Assembly: GCA_903882645.1 (NCBI GenBank)
Contig: CAIRXZ010000064.1
Span: forward strand, 1 to 50,490
Source of the DNA: an uncultured Acidobacteriia bacterium
GTDB lineage: Bacteria; Acidobacteriota; Terriglobia; Bryobacterales; Bryobacteraceae
DNA: 50,490 nt
Reading direction: 5' to 3'
A model generated the notes under the pieces. It was not told the DNA's origin, did no database searches, and was given only the letters and a program-made list of their open reading frames with translations. How positions within the stretch are numbered: the stretch's first letter is position 1; each line of letters starts with the position of its first letter. The position numbers were made by a program, and so were the translations under genes. Of this stretch, positions 19,474 to 50,080 are shown one piece after another.

Positions 19474-19660
19474 GGAATGCCGCGGGATTGGTGGGGCAGA
19501 CCCCCTGGTCTGCGCGGGTCCCCCCGGACCCGCTCTCCGCTCGAAGAATCAAGGCCCTGTACAACCGCGGCAGGCCGGCGGGGGCGTCGGCCGCGGACCA
19601 GGGGGTCCGCCCTACCACTTATGCAGGTGTGCCGTTTACGGGAGAAGTTTGCGGCATTCC
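19474..19660. repeat. Composite multi-hairpin element
   Basis: An outer inverted repeat GGAATGCCGC/GCGGCATTCC (19474-19483 with 19651-19660) encloses a 128-base element (19491-19618) with its own inverted ends, GTGGGGCAGACCCCCTGGTC against GTGGTAGGGCGGACC..., differing by a three-base gap. Inside, GCAGACC-CCCT-GGTCTGC (19496-19513) and GCGGGTCC-CCCC-GGACCCGC (19514-19533) are perfect adjacent hairpins with four-base loops. It lies next to the 3' end of the secreted-protein gene. Confidence 0.7.
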
Positions 19661-27013: not shown

Positions 27014-29368
27014 CTACAAATACTTCTGCACGCGCTCGCGGAAGCGGGTGTAGATCCACGAGACGCCGACCAGGATCAATCCCAGCGCGATGAACGAGAG
27101 AATGCGCGGCAGGGTGTCCAGGAAGCTCAGGTCGTAGACGAACAGCTTCAGAATGCAGAACAGCAGCAGCGCGAGGCCGGAGAGCCGCATCACGCGATCG
27201 CGCAGCGGAAAACCGGCGCCCAGAAGACCGAGGCCCTCAAGGCCCCACGCCACGGTCAGCACGCTGCCCGAGATTCTGTAATAGAGCAGGCCGGTCAGGA
27301 GCGCGGTCGCGAGCACCGAATAGTAGAGGCGCTCTTTCCGGCCGCGCGTGCTCAGCAGTTGCGCGGTATAGAAACAGGCGATTGCGAGGGCCGCGGCCAG
27401 CATGGTCTGGTGCGACCAGAAGTTGACCGCCCAGCAGCAGGCGAAGGCCGCCGCCGCGAGCGCGTAGGCCTGCCAGCGCAACGCTTGCCGCTCGATCCGC
27501 GGGGCCATGGCGGCGAGCAGCAAGGCTTCCGCCGCCCATGCCGGACCGGCCCAGGCGTGCGGCAGTACGGCGCGCAGCAGGATTGCCGCAAGCGCAGCGC
27601 CGGCCGTCGAGGCGATATCGAACAGCGTGGAGCGTTCCGATTCGAGGAACCGGTCCTCGGCCGACCAGAGCGCGCACAGCGCCGCGGCACAGCTCACCGC
27701 GGCGCCAATGGCGATCGAAAGGGGCGGGTGCGGCATGGTAAACAACGTACCCGCCGCCGCCAGACTCGCGAGCAGATACCCCTGGCGCCGGAAATCCGCC
27801 AACCGCCGCCACCACCCCACGAAGAATGGCCCGGCCGCCAGGAGGAACCACACCCGGCCGCACTCTCGCGCGGGCGCTTGGTGGCCCGCGATCAGAGCCG
27901 CCACCGCCGCCGCGGCGTACCCATAGAACGTATCGGCGGCGCGCATCGCACGGTTGGCATAGAAAACCAGCGCGGTGAGCGCGGCTGCGGGCGTCCACGC
28001 GGACACGGGAAGATCCGTCACTTCGACCGCGGTCAAGTGGACGAGTTCCAGCGCGAACAGCGGCACGGCCAACAGGCGCAGATATTTCGCGCGGAAGCGC
28101 AGGCCGCACAGGTGGAACAACTCGGCCTCGGCGAGAAGCGCAACCAGCAGCCACTGGTGGTCCAGGCGCCGGAAGATGGCCGCGGCAGCCAGCGCCGCGG
28201 TCAGAGTGGCTGGCGCGTGCCACGCTCCCGAGAGAAGCTCGGCGTCCGGATGCAGGCGCGCGCGCAATGCTCCGCTTATGGCATAGGCGATCGCGGCCAC
28301 GGCAAGAAACGCCCACAGGCGGCCGGGATCGGCGGCGTTCCATTTCAACAACGAGAACGAGAGGAAGCCCGCCGCGTTCAGAGGCATCAGCCACGGTATA
28401 GGGTCCAGAATCTCGAAGCCCTCAAACAGCAGCCAATAGACGGCGAAGACCGCCTGGGACGACCACAGCGGCGCGCTGGGATCGCCGCGCAACCCGCAAA
28501 CGGCATAAGTGGCGACGACCCCGAACAGGGGCAGCGTCCGCCAGCGAAAGCGGCGCGCGATATACAACAACGAAGCGGCCAGCGGGACCAGCGCCACCAC
28601 GGAGAGCGGCGTGACCTGGGTGATTGCCAACGCGGCAAAAGCGCTGAAGTAAGCCACCCCCGCGACGGCCTCGGAGCGGTATCGCAAGGCGTGCGCGATC
28701 ATCCCCACGGCCACCGCGATCAACAAAACGGCGCCCGCGACCGGACTGTGGATCACCTTGGCCGCGTCGAGCGCCTGCATGGCATAGACCGTGAAGTAGA
28801 GAGCCGCCCATCCGCCGCCGATCAAGCCGCGCGCGAAGGTCTGGTAGCGCGGGCGGCGTTCGTAGAAGATGCCGGCACCCAGCATCGCCGTTCCGGCAAC
28901 CAAGCCAATGGCGTCACGCCCCGCCGGACCCATGTGGCTGAACGAGTAACCGAGCGCCAAGGCGATGCCCACCACCAGGACGAACGCGCCAATCTTGTTC
29001 AGCCAGTTGCCGCCGAGCAAGGTCTCCCATTCGGCGCTCGACCGGCGCCCGGAAACCGGGACCGCGGTGAACGCCGGAGCGGGCGGCCAGTGAGGCGGGA
29101 CTTCCAGCCCGGCTTGTTCGGGTTCGGCGGACGGCGTGGAGGGAGCCTCAATCGGCGCCGGAAGCTGCGAAGCAACAGACTGGCAGGCGAAAGCGCCTGC
29201 CCCACCCTGTGAGGGCGGCGGCGCCGCGGGCGGGATGGCAACTTCGGCTGCGGGACGTCCGCGCTGGGCCGCAGCCGCGTCTTCGAGGGTCCAGATTCGC
29301 TTCGTGATCTCGGCGATCCGCCGGTCGATTGCGTCGAAGCGGGCGAGAATATCGGATTCGGTCATCAT
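27014..29368 (-). CDS. DUF2339 multi-pass membrane protein
   Basis: A 784-residue protein with a soluble start and more than twenty predicted membrane segments, matching DUF2339. The first ~45 residues form an amphipathic coiled coil (DSILARFDAIDRRIAEITKR). A Pro/Ala linker follows to about residue 120, then hydrophobic helices fill the rest (e.g. 'IGAFVLVVGIALALGYSF'). Function is unknown; the family is often described as envelope-associated. Oddity: the linker contains 'GGAGAFACQ', which is the translation of a copy of the palindrome at 29182-29201. It is the last gene of a minus-strand pair with the acyltransferase, 13 bases away. Confidence 0.85.
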   Translation of the reverse strand: MMTESDILARFDAIDRRIAEITKRIWTLEDAAAAQRGRPAAEVAIPPAAPPPSQGGAGAFACQSVASQLPAPIEAPSTPSAEPEQAGLEVPPHWPPAPAFTAVPVSGRRSSAEWETLLGGNWLNKIGAFVLVVGIALALGYSFSHMGPAGRDAIGLVAGTAMLGAGIFYERRPRYQTFARGLIGGGWAALYFTVYAMQALDAAKVIHSPVAGAVLLIAVAVGMIAHALRYRSEAVAGVAYFSAFAALAITQVTPLSVVALVPLAASLLYIARRFRWRTLPLFGVVATYAVCGLRGDPSAPLWSSQAVFAVYWLLFEGFEILDPIPWLMPLNAAGFLSFSLLKWNAADPGRLWAFLAVAAIAYAISGALRARLHPDAELLSGAWHAPATLTAALAAAAIFRRLDHQWLLVALLAEAELFHLCGLRFRAKYLRLLAVPLFALELVHLTAVEVTDLPVSAWTPAAALTALVFYANRAMRAADTFYGYAAAAVAALIAGHQAPARECGRVWFLLAAGPFFVGWWRRLADFRRQGYLLASLAAAGTLFTMPHPPLSIAIGAAVSCAAALCALWSAEDRFLESERSTLFDIASTAGAALAAILLRAVLPHAWAGPAWAAEALLLAAMAPRIERQALRWQAYALAAAAFACCWAVNFWSHQTMLAAALAIACFYTAQLLSTRGRKERLYYSVLATALLTGLLYYRISGSVLTVAWGLEGLGLLGAGFPLRDRVMRLSGLALLLFCILKLFVYDLSFLDTLPRILSFIALGLILVGVSWIYTRFRERVQKYL
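29182..29201. repeat. Palindromic repeat inside the DUF2339 gene
   Basis: GGCAGGCGAAAGCGCCTGCC is a perfect 8-bp hairpin with an AAAG loop, identical to the left arm of the nested element at 23464-23543. It lies in the low-complexity linker of the protein. Confidence 0.7.
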
Positions 29369-32762: not shown

Positions 32763-32839
32763 GGCCTTGTTTAAACACGCCTGTCGCCGGGAAGAAACTG
32801 TTTAGAATCAATGCCGCCACCAGTCATTGGAAACGAGTA

Positions 32840-32869
32840 TGTACATTCTAGGTCATTGTAATGTACAAT
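32840..32869 (+). promoter_or_regulatory. Promoter/operator of the sigma-54 activator gene
   Basis: TGTACATT (32840-32847) and AATGTACA (32860-32867) are perfect 8-bp inverted arms 12 bases apart. The -35-like TGTACA (32840-32845) and -10-like TACAAT (32864-32869), 18 apart, lie within the two arms, so a dimer bound there would block the polymerase. The ATG follows eight bases after the -10 box, with no Shine-Dalgarno. Confidence 0.6.
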
Positions 32870-32877
32870 CTATGCAC

Positions 32878-34416
32878 ATGGCTTGGATTCCAGATTCGGA
32901 GCGTGGGTTTCTTGAAAGCGTGTCCCGGCTGGGCTACTGCAATCCCTTTCTGCCGGAACGGGTCAGTTTCGAGCGCGCGGCCCTGGGCGGCGATTTCGTG
33001 GAAGGCGAGCCGGTCTGGAGCCAGCAGGTGGCCGAACCCGAACGGCCGCGCGCCAATGCGTGGCGCATCACGGAGAAGCTGGAGCGGGTCGCGGAGGGGT
33101 TGCGGGCGCGGCTGGCGGCGGGCGCCGGGGCAGGCGAGCGGGACCTCGCGCTGTACGAGGACGCCGTGCTGCTGCTGCTGTATCAGCGTTTCTACCCCGA
33201 CTTCTTCGAGGCCTCGTTCGGGCCATCCGCCGCCAAGCCCGACCCCGCGCGCTGGCGGTTCTATAGCAACTTCCTGGCCGGCTGGCGGCATTTCTTCCAC
33301 ATCGAGGGGGTGCGCTTCCCGACCGGCCACGACCCGCGTCATACCTTCGCGTGCTTCCGGCAAATCCAGCGGGCCTTCGAGCAGGTCTTTCGCGAGATCA
33401 TCGGCGGTTCCATGCCCGCGGCGCGGCTGCGCGCGGCGATCTGGCAATCCATCTTCACGCACGACATGCGGCGCTACCGGCGGACGCTCTACGCGCGCAT
33501 GGGCGAGTTCGCCACCCTGATCACCGGTCCATCGGGCAGCGGAAAGGAACTGGTGGCGCGGGCCATCGCCCAGTCGCGCTACGCTCCGTTCGACGACCGG
33601 CGGCTGGCCTTCGCCGACGAGGGCGCAGCCTCGTTCTTCCCGATCAACATCTCCGCGCTCTCGCCGACGCTGGTGGAATCGGAGTTATTTGGCCACCGCC
33701 GCGGCGCATTCACCGGAGCGGTGGCGGACCGCAAAGGGTACCTGGAAACCTGTCCGGAGCTGGGATCGGTATTTCTCGACGAATTGGGCGACCTCGACCC
33801 GGCCATCCAGGTGAAACTGCTGCGCGTGATCGAGACGCGCACCTTCCATCCGGTGGGTGACACGGCCGGGCGGCAGTTCCGCGGGAAGCTAATCACCGCC
33901 ACGAACCACGACTTGCCCGCCGCCATGCGAAGTGGCCGGTTCCGCGAGGACCTCTACTATCGCCTGTGCTCGGACCAGATCGCCACGCCTTCCCTCGCCG
34001 AGCAGTTGGCCGATTCGCCCGGCGTGCTGCGCGATCTGGCGTGGTACATGGCGCGCCGCGTAGCGGGACCGGAAGGGGAAGAACTGGCCGCCGAGGTGAT
34101 GCGGTGGATGGAGGCCAACCTCGCCCCGGACTATGCCTGGCCGGGCAACTATCGCGAGCTGGAGCAGTGCGTGAAGAATGTGCTGATCCGCAGAGATTAC
34201 CGCCCGGCGCGCACGGCCGCCGAAGACCCGGCGGGAGAGTTCTGGCAGGACGCGCGCGCGGGCAAGCTCACCGCCGACGAACTGCTCCGCCGCTACGTCA
34301 CCCTCGTCTACAGCCGGACACGCAGCTATGAGGAGACCGCCCGCAGGCTGGCGCTGGACCGGAGGACGGTGAAGAGCAAGGTGGACGCGGGGCTTCTGGA
34401 GAAACTGCGAGCGTAG
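32878..34416 (+). CDS. Sigma-54-dependent transcriptional activator with an uncharacterised N-terminal domain
   Basis: From the ATG at 32878 the protein is 512 residues. It has a central AAA+ domain: Walker A GPSGSGKE (about 215-222), the sigma-54 contact loop GAFTGA at 276-281, Walker B VFLDELGD, and the sensor/arginine-finger region 'FREDLYYRLCSDQI'. The end is a Fis-like helix-turn-helix (YEETARRLALDRRTVKSKVD). There is no receiver, PAS or GAF domain; residues 1-205 are a helical region rich in aromatic residues ('FYSNFLAGWRHFFHIEGVRF') that I do not recognise and that presumably senses the signal. An in-frame ATG at 32827 lies upstream of the promoter and is rejected. Target operons are unknown; the GH31 gene downstream is one candidate. 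Confidence 0.87.
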   Translation: MAWIPDSERGFLESVSRLGYCNPFLPERVSFERAALGGDFVEGEPVWSQQVAEPERPRANAWRITEKLERVAEGLRARLAAGAGAGERDLALYEDAVLLLLYQRFYPDFFEASFGPSAAKPDPARWRFYSNFLAGWRHFFHIEGVRFPTGHDPRHTFACFRQIQRAFEQVFREIIGGSMPAARLRAAIWQSIFTHDMRRYRRTLYARMGEFATLITGPSGSGKELVARAIAQSRYAPFDDRRLAFADEGAASFFPINISALSPTLVESELFGHRRGAFTGAVADRKGYLETCPELGSVFLDELGDLDPAIQVKLLRVIETRTFHPVGDTAGRQFRGKLITATNHDLPAAMRSGRFREDLYYRLCSDQIATPSLAEQLADSPGVLRDLAWYMARRVAGPEGEELAAEVMRWMEANLAPDYAWPGNYRELEQCVKNVLIRRDYRPARTAAEDPAGEFWQDARAGKLTADELLRRYVTLVYSRTRSYEETARRLALDRRTVKSKVDAGLLEKLRA

Positions 34417-34499
34417 AGTCGGCCGGGGAATAACCAGTTCAATCGCCGCCGGCGGGTCCAATGCCTAGTATCGCGACCGTGAGGAAAGGTGCGATTTCT

Positions 34500-34587
34500 G
34501 TGGGGCAGGATGGTATCCTGCGCGGCGATTGGCAATCGCCGCGCGTGCCGGTTGCCAACCGGCACGCAGCTTGCCAAGCTGCCCCAC
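34500..34587. repeat. Array of four consecutive perfect hairpins with three-base loops, bounded by inverted ends
   Basis: GTGGGGCAG (34500-34508) and CTGCCCCAC (34579-34587) are exact inverted ends. Between and overlapping them are four perfect hairpins: GCAGGAT-GGT-ATCCTGC (34505-34521); a 10-bp stem around GGC (34521-34543); GCGTGCCGGTT-GCC-AACCGGCACGC (34543-34567); and GCAGCTT-GCC-AAGCTGC (34566-34582). The element lies between the activator and the GH31 gene; apart from it 34417-34697 shows nothing. Confidence 0.85.
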
Positions 34588-34697
34588 AAACGAACCCTTT
34601 CAAGCGGTCAGAGACCTGGTCCACCCCGAGCCGGCCGAAAAGCGCAACTGGACTCCGGTTCGGATACGGACTACTATGCTGTCAAAGGACTCTTACT

Positions 34698-37103
34698 GTG
34701 AGCAACCGCCGTCTTTCTCTTTTTCTATGCGCCGGACTGGCGCTCATGTGGCGCTCTAGCCTGGATGCTCAAGTGGACAGGCCGCCCGGCCTGGTGAGCG
34801 ACCTGGTGGATGTGAGCGGCGATTTCCACGAATACAGGAACACCTACTTCCTGGCCGACAAACTCGCGGGCTTCGACCCGGCGAGCGGAGTCGGCGCGAT
34901 TACCTGGGCGCGCAATCAGCTTTACCCCCGGATCGCGTTCAACAACATGGAGAACGTGCTGCGGCCGTTCGAAGGCGTCACTTTCCCGGAGGGAGAATAC
35001 GCCGTCAATCAAACGCTGCCCTTCTCTATCCAATTCGTCTCGCCACGGGCGGTTCGAATCCGCATCCGGACCGGGCCGCGCGCGCGAGCCGAGGAACCCT
35101 CGCCAATGCTGGTCCGCGAGCCGCCTCGGGATGCTTCGTGGAAAATGGCGCGCATCGCCGGCGGCTACCGCTACGCGAGCGAGGCGGGTTCCGTCACGAT
35201 CCTGGAGAACCCCTGGCACATCGAGTTTCGCGACGCCCAGGGCCGCCTGCTCACCCAGACCGATCACAGTTCCGACAATGCGGCGCAGCTCGAACCGGTC
35301 CTGCCGTTCTCGTTTATCCGGCGCGCCTCCGACTATTCCCGGAGCGTCGCCGCCGTGTTCTCGCTCGCGCCGGGGGAGAAGCTGTTCGGCTGCGGGGAGA
35401 GCTTCACGCGGCTCGATAAGCGCGGCCAGAAGGTGGTCTTATGGGCGAACGACGCCAACGGCGTGGAGACCGGCCGCATGTACAAGCCGATTCCGTTCTT
35501 CATGAGCAACCGCGGCTATGGCATGTTCGTCCACACCTCGGCGCCGGCGACCTTCGATTTCGGCGCGACGTTCGGCAATACCAACGCCTTGCTGCTGGGC
35601 GACGACGAACTCGACCTGTTCGTGTTCCTGGGCGCGCCCAAGGACATCCTGAACGAATACACGACTCTGACCGGAAGGCCGCCCATGCCGCCGCTCTGGT
35701 CGTTCGGCCTGTGGATGAGCCGGATCACGTACTACTCCGAGGACGAGACGCGCGCGGTGGCCGCGAAACTGCGCGAGAACCGCGTCCCAAGCGACGTAAT
35801 CCACCTCGATACAGGCTGGTTCGAGACCGACTGGCGGTGCGATTACCAATTCTCCAAGACGCGCTTCAAAGACCCGGCGAAGATGATCGCCGACCTCAAA
35901 CGCGACGGATTCCACATCTCGCTTTGGCAGCTTCCCTACTTTGTCCCCAAGAATTCGCTGTTCCCGGAAATCGTGGCCAAGGGTCTGGCGGTCAAGGACG
36001 GCAAGGGCGGCCTGCCGTATGAGGACGCCGTGCTGGACTTCACCAACCCGGCGGCGGTCGCATGGTACCAGGAGAAGATCGCGAGTCTGCTCAAGATGGG
36101 CGTGGGCGCCATCAAAGTCGATTTCGGAGAGGCCGCGCCGCTCAACGGAATCTATGCCAACGGCCGCAGCGGATTCTACGAGCACAACCTCTATCCGCTT
36201 CGCTACAACAAGACCGTGGCGGATATCACGCGGCAGGTCACCGGCGAGAACATCATGTGGGCGCGGAGCGCATGGGCCGGCAGCCAGCGCTATCCGCTGC
36301 ACTGGGGCGGCGACTCGGGCGCGCAGGATTCCGGCATGGCTGAGACGTTGCGCGGAGGGCTTTCCCTGGGGTTGAGCGGCTTCACCTTCTGGAGTCACGA
36401 CATCGGCGGCTTCGCGGCCAAGACGCCGGAGGAGCTTTACCGGCGATGGATGCCTTTCGGAATGCTCACCTCGCACAGCCGCTGCCATGGCACGCCGCCC
36501 AAGGAGCCGTGGGAGTACAGCGCCGCATTCCTGGACGACTTCCGCCGCGCGGACGAGATGAAGTACCGGCTTATGCCCTACGTCTACGCTCAGGCCAAGG
36601 ATGCCAGCGAGCGCGGGCTCCCCATGGTGCGCGCGCTATTCATCGAGTATCCCGGCGATCCCGGCTCCTGGCAGGTGGAAGACGAGTACCTGTTCGGTTC
36701 GGATATCCTGGTGGCGCCGTTGATGGAGACGGGCATCCCGGCGCGCGACGTCTACCTGCCGCCCGGCCAATGGATCGATTACCAGAGCGGCAAGGCTTAT
36801 GCCGGCGGCTGGCACAACATCCCGGCGGGCCAGATTCCGGTGGTGATGCTGGTGCGCGAAGGCGCCGTGATTCCGCATATCAAGCTGGCACAGTCCACCG
36901 CGCAGATGGATTGGTCGAACATCGAGATGGTGGTTTTCGCCGCCAACGCGCAGAACGCGCAGGGTCTGGTCTGCCTGCCCTCGGACAATGTACTGCGCCG
37001 GGTCGAAGCCGTACGGCGCAACGGCGTTTTCGCGCTGGCGGGCGATCCGCTGGCCGGGAAGGCCGCCTCGACCGTGCGCATGTATTCGGCGGCCGCGCGG
37101 TAA
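34698..37103 (+). CDS. Glycoside hydrolase family 31 (alpha-xylosidase/alpha-glucosidase), secreted
   Basis: From a GTG at 34698 this is an 801-residue exported enzyme with a signal peptide (MSNRRLSLFLCAGLALMWRS, cleaved near SLDAQ). The frame is open further upstream, through the hairpin array, but the signal peptide and an AAAGGA nearby decide the start. It has the N-terminal GH31 beta-sandwich, then the (beta/alpha)8 barrel beginning 'PPLWSFGLWMSRITYYSEDE'. The catalytic nucleophile is D475 in KVDFGE and the acid/base is D539 in HWGGDSG. The motif set resembles YicI-type alpha-xylosidases more than maltases, so xyloglucan side chains are a plausible substrate. It pairs functionally with the CE15 enzyme as plant-polymer degradation. 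Confidence 0.93.
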   Translation: MSNRRLSLFLCAGLALMWRSSLDAQVDRPPGLVSDLVDVSGDFHEYRNTYFLADKLAGFDPASGVGAITWARNQLYPRIAFNNMENVLRPFEGVTFPEGEYAVNQTLPFSIQFVSPRAVRIRIRTGPRARAEEPSPMLVREPPRDASWKMARIAGGYRYASEAGSVTILENPWHIEFRDAQGRLLTQTDHSSDNAAQLEPVLPFSFIRRASDYSRSVAAVFSLAPGEKLFGCGESFTRLDKRGQKVVLWANDANGVETGRMYKPIPFFMSNRGYGMFVHTSAPATFDFGATFGNTNALLLGDDELDLFVFLGAPKDILNEYTTLTGRPPMPPLWSFGLWMSRITYYSEDETRAVAAKLRENRVPSDVIHLDTGWFETDWRCDYQFSKTRFKDPAKMIADLKRDGFHISLWQLPYFVPKNSLFPEIVAKGLAVKDGKGGLPYEDAVLDFTNPAAVAWYQEKIASLLKMGVGAIKVDFGEAAPLNGIYANGRSGFYEHNLYPLRYNKTVADITRQVTGENIMWARSAWAGSQRYPLHWGGDSGAQDSGMAETLRGGLSLGLSGFTFWSHDIGGFAAKTPEELYRRWMPFGMLTSHSRCHGTPPKEPWEYSAAFLDDFRRADEMKYRLMPYVYAQAKDASERGLPMVRALFIEYPGDPGSWQVEDEYLFGSDILVAPLMETGIPARDVYLPPGQWIDYQSGKAYAGGWHNIPAGQIPVVMLVREGAVIPHIKLAQSTAQMDWSNIEMVVFAANAQNAQGLVCLPSDNVLRRVEAVRRNGVFALAGDPLAGKAASTVRMYSAAAR

Positions 37104-41720: not shown

Positions 41721-41797
41721 TGGTCGGGGCGGGGCGATTTGAACGCCCGACCCCCTGCGCCCAAGGCAGGTGCGCTACCAGGCTGCGCTACGCCCCG
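41721..41797 (-). tRNA. tRNA-Pro(TGG)
   Basis: A complete 77-base tRNA on the minus strand: acceptor stem CGGGGCG/CGCCCCG, D stem GCGC/GCGC, anticodon stem CCTGC/GCAGG around loop CTTGGGC (anticodon TGG), T arm GGGCG-TTCAAAT-CGCCC, discriminator A and an encoded CCA. It decodes CCA and, by wobble, CCG/CCU codons. Its 3' half is duplicated at 38675-38721, so it was the integration target of the neighbouring island, which left the tRNA sequence intact. Confidence 0.95.
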
Positions 41798-49873: not shown

Positions 49874-50080
49874 AAGCCCCGTCAGGGGCGCTAGAAAATA
49901 GCCCATGGCGCAAGCCGTGGGGAACCTGTCCGAAAGGACGCCAGCCCCGCAGGGGCGTAAGAAAGCGTTTCGTTCCCAGCGATCGATCATTCGACGTGAA
50001 GCGGTTCTTTCGCCCCTGACGGGGATCCTTGCTCTACGGGCTTGTTCCCATGGCTGGCGCCATGGGCTACTGTCTGGCGC
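49874..50080. repeat. REP cluster
   Basis: Several short palindromes are packed here: GCCCC..GGGGC (49876-49889), CCCATGGC..GCCGTGGG (49902-49920), GCCCCGCAGGGGC (near 49948-49960), CCCCTGACGGGG (near 50012-50025) and CCCATGGC-TGGC-GCCATGGG (50047-50066). Two blocks match the REP at 13815-13864. No gene is seen in 49720-50247. Confidence 0.65.

Follow-up and report, generated by a model that had tools for sequence, protein, structure and literature searches.

A probable REPIN-like four-hairpin element of the RAYT type in a draft Bryobacteraceae genome, apparently respread in part within a TA-duplicating repeat

The window analyzed here, the whole stretch of 50,490 nucleotides from contig CAIRXZ010000064.1 of an uncultured Acidobacteriia bacterium (Bryobacteraceae; assembly GCA_903882645.1), contains an 88-bp four-hairpin core (34500..34587, no strand assigned) that consists of two inverted two-hairpin REPs placed head to head. 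We consider it very probable that this core is a REPIN-like miniature element of the RAYT type, which now looks orphaned in its genome and seems to have partly respread as the cargo of a TA-duplicating element of 149 bp. The copy number, the inverted pairing of the REPs, the compensating changes in the stems, the association of the REP with RAYT genes in relatives, the conserved flanks and the TA dinucleotides were all observed directly.

Read directly from the sequence, the core runs GTGGG, H1, H2, GC, H3, H4, CCCAC. All four hairpins are perfect: H1 (34505-34521) has a 7-bp stem and the loop GGT, H2 (34522-34542) a 9-bp stem and GGC, H3 (34545-34565) a 9-bp stem and GCC, and H4 (34566-34582) a 7-bp stem and GCC. 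The left REP (34500..34542, + strand) is made up of the guide GTGG(G) followed by H1 and H2, and the right REP (34545..34587, − strand) of GTGG(G), H4 and H3; this layout is also found beside RAYT genes. GTGG, one further G and the 7-bp hairpin correspond to the 5′ GT[AG]G guide at the hairpin foot that is seen in REPs. Adjoining hairpins can share GC bases, and the stem lengths of 7, 10, 11 and 7 bp given in a previous sequence-only reading hold if the shared bases are counted (at least 10 bp for H2 and 11 bp for H3); otherwise the stems are 7/9/9/7. That reading also had the whole structure closed by the arms GTGGGGCAG/CTGCCCCAC. These are present, but they overlap H1 and H4, so that just 5–6 bp can pair in a closing stem compatible with all four hairpins formed together.

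The central observation of the sequence-only reading, four perfect triloop hairpins within GTGGG/CCCAC, lies far beyond chance. The window holds a chain of four adjacent perfect hairpins (stem at least 7 bp, loop 3), and when the window was simulated 40 times with a first-order Markov model, the longest such chain was 1. When 111 nt were folded as DNA, the z-score was −5.71; it was −7.74 for folding as RNA and −6.57 for the minus strand folded as DNA, and in each case none of 200 shuffles was equally stable. A terminator-like site is absent, in agreement with the earlier view that the core is not a terminator.

The element is preceded by a gene for a sigma-54 interaction domain protein (32827..34416, +), which lies outside it, and followed by one for a glycoside hydrolase of family 31 (34698..37103, +), whose start was chosen by hand (the mechanical ORF begins at 34461); both serve as context only. 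REPs of other kinds also occur in the window. Another two-hairpin REP, GTGGGGCAGACCCCCTGGTCTGCGCGGGTCCCCCCGGACCCGC, at 19491 (+) closely resembles the one next to a RAYT of G101 (L152), and a third type, GTGGGGCAGGCGCTTTCGCCTGCC, at 29205 (−) resembles the REPs beside RAYTs L072 and L092. ARAGORN and Rfam agree on a tRNA-Pro (tgg) at 41721-41797 (−), and a match to Acido-Lenti-1 RNA at 49875-49921 (−) has 37 bits, a value equal to the gathering score of Rfam.

The window's own genome (G000) is a draft of 5.27 Mb in 366 contigs, from which genes may be missing. BLAST detected many copies related to the core in this genome, and a covariance model made from 24 cores gave 81 matches on the two strands at E ≤ 0.001, corresponding to 42 distinct places. 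These places are scattered, and their flanks are unrelated. A count of copies across the genome had been called for earlier, with a single copy as the sign of a one-off structure; the 42 places speak for a dispersed family. With at most one mismatch allowed, G000 contains 72 instances of the REP half GTGGGGCAGNWTNNNAWNCTGC and 0 of a reversed control pattern. Most of these halves (56/72) form 28 inward-pointing pairs; the pair spans exactly 88 bp in 27 cases and 91 bp in one. The other 16 are single, and two of them (C8, C330) are located at contig ends; C8 and C158 are apparently one and the same copy, judged from their identical flanks. In relatives, 6 to 22 extra bases may part the two halves, giving forms of 94, 108 and 110 bp.

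Two inverted REPs could be kept either as four separate hairpins, referred to as the clover, or as one long hairpin. The fold was assessed by covariation in an alignment of the 24 cores, 20 from G000 and four from relatives, in which 98.1% of the pair cells were paired. Changes on both sides of a pair numbered 56, compared to 19.0 ± 2.9 in shuffles, about three times as many, and none of 500 shuffles reached this value; the shuffle controls keep the relatedness of the cores, and the independent events are therefore fewer than these cell counts. The covariation was 0.181 in the cores and at most 0.037 in slid controls. The stems change in compensating pairs, and the loops drift. Pairs 10-18, 11-17 and 71-79 covary within single hairpins, and the same positions mismatch across the long fold, in which pair 10-79 is unpaired in 22/24 cores and 18-71 in 17/24. 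The outer arms of H1 and H4 are exactly complementary in only one of the 24 cores, L039, leaving the long hairpin broken in the other 23. Since the covarying positions match within hairpins and not across the long fold, the aligned sequences support the clover as the fold that is kept, and one long hairpin as the kept structure was rejected on the covariation. Energy folding of the plus strand runs counter to the clover, favoring pairing between the two outer arms. Because the inverted pair departs from the long hairpin by which REPINs are classically recognized, the core is a REPIN-like variant and not a plain REPIN member. Bertels and Rainey proposed the clover as the fold recognized by RAYTs, with the long hairpin as the quiet form (legend of Fig. 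S11 in PMC3116915). With covariation supporting the clover and the long hairpin broken in 23/24 copies, a REPIN-like family in which evolution has fixed the fold as four hairpins makes this proposal testable on a natural substrate.

The decisive link to an enzyme came from relatives. A RAYT from G023 was used as the query against 150 genomes of the family, and 71 of them had some RAYT at E ≤ 1e-10. The six genomes with the best matches (G023, G004, G138, G155, G018 and G140; 62–100% identity to the query), which carry a RAYT of the same clade, were all core-positive, compared to 27/150 overall. A total of 72 RAYT loci, all 30 from one search and 42 of the 80 from another, were scanned for REPs. 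The relatives that bear a name are metagenome genomes of Bryobacteraceae, Bryobacterales and other Acidobacteriota, so that on this evidence, too, the source of the window is most likely a Bryobacteraceae-like acidobacterium. Every entry with at least 62% identity to the query (11/11, representing nine distinct loci) had the same two-hairpin REP beside the gene, of the GCAGG(T/C)T + GCCG(A/G)TT type. The pattern itself picked out nine of the 11; the other two, L184 and L221, were recognized on reading the sequence, and have GCAGGCT, in which a T to C change is compensated. Below 62% identity, one of 61 entries matched the pattern (L206, with the first hairpin identical and the second different) and 30/61 had some two-hairpin GTGG REP; in the remainder, a REP was not found by the strict scan. 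In G004, inverted copies of the exact half-element, GTGGGGCAGGTT..AACCTGC + GCCGATT..AATCGGC, enclose the RAYT (L066, also L133). By the strict scan, an inverted REP pair occupies both sides of the gene at three of the nine clade loci (L133, L135 and L221); the other loci have the REP on a single side, or hold tandem or additional copies (L134, L184).

A tree built from 48 RAYTs parts the nine clade RAYTs from the four of G000 by a branch with support 96/88, with the caveat that L138, for which a REP was not found, and L206 group among the nine and that the branch of L221 is very long. Four clade RAYTs scored 80.2, 78.8, 80.0 and 67.0 bits against the REP_Tyr_transpos model, so that two were at or above the NCBIfam cut-off of 80 and two were under it. 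When one clade RAYT was compared with solved structures, it matched TnpArep (4er8) with E 2.6e-7. The presence of this two-hairpin half-element beside a single RAYT clade in relatives strongly supports the earlier suggestion of a non-autonomous transposon that a RAYT-like enzyme maintains. The RAYTs at G155:C47, G138:C369 and G023:C155 belong to this clade. With the matching RAYT clade identified, enzyme and DNA can be combined in vitro.

G000 itself has seven matches to Y1 transposases, one of which (C296) is below the Pfam cut-off, and four of the seven are RAYTs. A RAYT of the matching clade was not found in this draft; the nearest has 60% identity and a different REP. Three of the RAYTs (L046, L049 and L050) are flanked by GTGGGG hairpins that are inverted to each other and differ in sequence from those of the core; for the fourth (L048), similar GTGGGGCGG repeats are present on either side. 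The RAYTs of G000 were rejected as movers of the core because their REPs differ, and action by them in trans is possible. The four-hairpin family looks orphaned in G000, where enzyme loss and a gap in the draft would appear alike. Orphan REPs are expected after enzyme loss, and we therefore did not count a cognate RAYT in G000 as essential to the assignment.

The element can be explained as follows. The core presents two REP end signals head to head, with the GTGG guides outside and two hairpins in tandem in each REP. The folded REPs would most likely be recognized in single-stranded DNA by a RAYT (TnpA-REP, an HUH single-strand nuclease), which would cut near the guide and then move or copy the whole 88-base unit. 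The TnpA-REP proteins of E. coli, Stenotrophomonas and Marinomonas, as described in PMC8266576, bind single-stranded REP hairpins and use the 5′ tetranucleotide, cleaving at CT and, in Marinomonas, also at CA; it is by analogy with these proteins that we infer the cutting and moving of the units by a cognate RAYT acting on the folded core. The copies in G000 would be orphans of past RAYT activity. About a dozen of them, including that in the window, probably spread afterwards as cargo of the 149-bp TA-duplicating element with inverted ends, in the style of Tc1/mariner-IS630. Both this order of events and the nature of the outer layer, a MITE mobilized by a DDE transposase, are inferred. A more specific claim, that an enzyme-less HUH/RAYT element was taken over by a DDE-type MITE and that one repeat was moved successively by two unrelated transposition chemistries, is tentative, and we would give it a little less than an even chance.

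The outer element (34468..34616, no strand assigned) carries the core and has imperfect inverted ends of about 22 bp, GTATCGCGACCGTGAGGAAAGG and, from the right, GGTCTCTGACCGCTTGAAAGGG. Nine complete copies (L004-L012), including the window copy, have both flanks in common, with the consensus GTATCGCGACCGTnAGGAAAGGTGCGATTTC on the left and AAACGRACCYTTTCNAGCGGTCAARGNNC on the right, from which single copies deviate. Partial copies are present at L013, L014, L015, L016 and L020, along with a half copy in C247. In the window, the putative target duplication is seen as a TA at 34466..34467, within the CTAG at 34465-34468, and as a decayed TG at 34617..34618. TA lies outside both ends in 7/9 complete copies; the exceptions are the window copy and L012, which has TA on the left and TT on the right. 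The composites are mostly located in CTAG. A 4-bp duplication of CTAG was considered and rejected: L007 has TTAG on the left and CTAA on the right, which fits TA only. A search for DDE_3 transposases gave no match in G000, G001 and G002, and an IS630 parent in the genus was rejected, since the two DDE_3 matches in G003 are not near ends of the outer element. The outer element looks like a MITE of the Tc1/mariner (IS630) type; we have not filed it as one because an autonomous partner with the same ends was not found. Most simply, a single core was incorporated into a TA-duplicating MITE and recently spread with it, and the outer repeat was probably the last mover of the window copy. The sequence-only reading is thus supported in part: its suggestion of a RAYT element holds up well, but it missed the lack of a RAYT of the matching clade in this genome and the location of the window copy inside another, longer repeat that has TA duplications.

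Two further arrangements were seen around cores. L013 and L014 (G000:C1 and C81) combine the right composite flank with a different, shared left flank within a mosaic of other REPs, which looks like recombination between repeats. L018 and L019 (around 1485-1610) are free cores that share short flanks, CCGAT before and AATCGGARCAGNTGTC after, and these flanks perhaps belong to another carrier element. In addition, locus L002 has at 1501-1606 a cluster of further GTGGGGCAGGC palindromes from another REP family.

The outer repeat could instead be a family of palindromic targets that was hit repeatedly by the REPIN-like element and is itself immobile. There is precedent for this in PMC3733652, where REP dimers, namely some GTAG and CGTC dimers, regularly lie inside similar palindromes that are called targets. 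Core-free outer repeats were not found in G000, where all 19 matches to the joined flanks fall at composites or fragments, and the same search of 24 relatives gave a best match of E 0.12. Core-free palindromes were likewise not found in two of the three published cases, so that their absence here is not decisive. The cores within composites are also far more alike than the free ones, differing by 3.3% on average (six rows) compared to 10.5% (14 rows) for free cores in G000, and this, together with the TA on both sides of 7/9 copies, makes the target reading unlikely.

Two other readings of the core were weighed. The very stable folds on both strands would suit a structured RNA, and ARAGORN calls a tRNA-Ala at 34496-34590 (−) of the window and a tRNA at 18/30 core loci tested. 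However, the supposed anticodon is the triloop of a hairpin and drifts among Ala, Pro, Gly, Thr and Asp, and Rfam has no tRNA match at the core even at E up to 5. The tRNA identity was rejected on account of this drift and of the lack of a match to the tRNA covariance model; tRNA finders can thus falsely annotate these repeats as tRNAs. The copies moreover lie in unrelated surroundings, and no promoter-like or terminator-like site was found at the core, leaving a structured RNA or tRNA-like gene hardly credible. Maintenance by the host as an immobile protein docking or transcription-punctuation site is also quite improbable. The window copy does lie between two co-directional genes, and roles of this type have been assigned to REPs elsewhere (PMC3733652); against this stand the patchy presence in 27/150 family genomes, the 42 scattered places with unrelated flanks and the specific association with RAYT genes. 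Computation found no support for the docking or small-RNA role suggested earlier; a secondary use of the core by the host is possible.

A mobile REPIN-like element has close counterparts among known systems. As in the REPINs of Pseudomonas fluorescens SBW25 described in PMC3116915, two inverted REPs form one dispersed unit, pairs outnumber singles, changes are compensating and every RAYT goes with a REP family of its own. The core differs in that each of its REPs has two hairpins and in its 88-bp form without a spacer, and the published REPINs are described as one long hairpin, with the clover as a less stable alternative, whereas covariation points to four hairpins here. With the REPtrons that have GT[AG]G REPs (PMC6006769), the clade shares a RAYT gene flanked by hairpins and a RAYT-specific 5′ GTGG guide. 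By our own reading of an alignment, the clade RAYT keeps the W, the Q and the R in the region that contacts the guide, and D and R occupy the places of E100 and H101, as the paper describes for subclasses 2.5 and 2.7. The available text of that paper describes single-hairpin and double-foot types, a two-hairpin REP not being among them, and reports about 600 copies of other structures, with a CnGA foot and of class 3, in Solibacter usitatus. The CGTC-3 dimers of Agrobacterium tumefaciens in PMC3733652 likewise have four hairpins in total, since their spacer ends hold two stem-loops; they differ in the CGTC tag and in the 20–23 bp between the spacer stem-loops. For the outer element, the TA duplication upon insertion into TA is shared with IS630/Tc1-mariner (PMC2170065), and IS630 prefers TA within CTAG according to work cited there; unlike these elements, it has no transposase, and an autonomous parent was not found. 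No description of the two-hairpin GTGG REP, its Bryobacteraceae RAYT clade or the TA-duplicating carrier was found in the open-access texts consulted. REPINs, REPtrons and RAYT-specific REPs are already known from PMC3116915 and PMC6006769, and PMC3733652 describes other families in which REP dimers lie within palindromes. The element is thus a variant of the known REP/REPIN type and not a new type.
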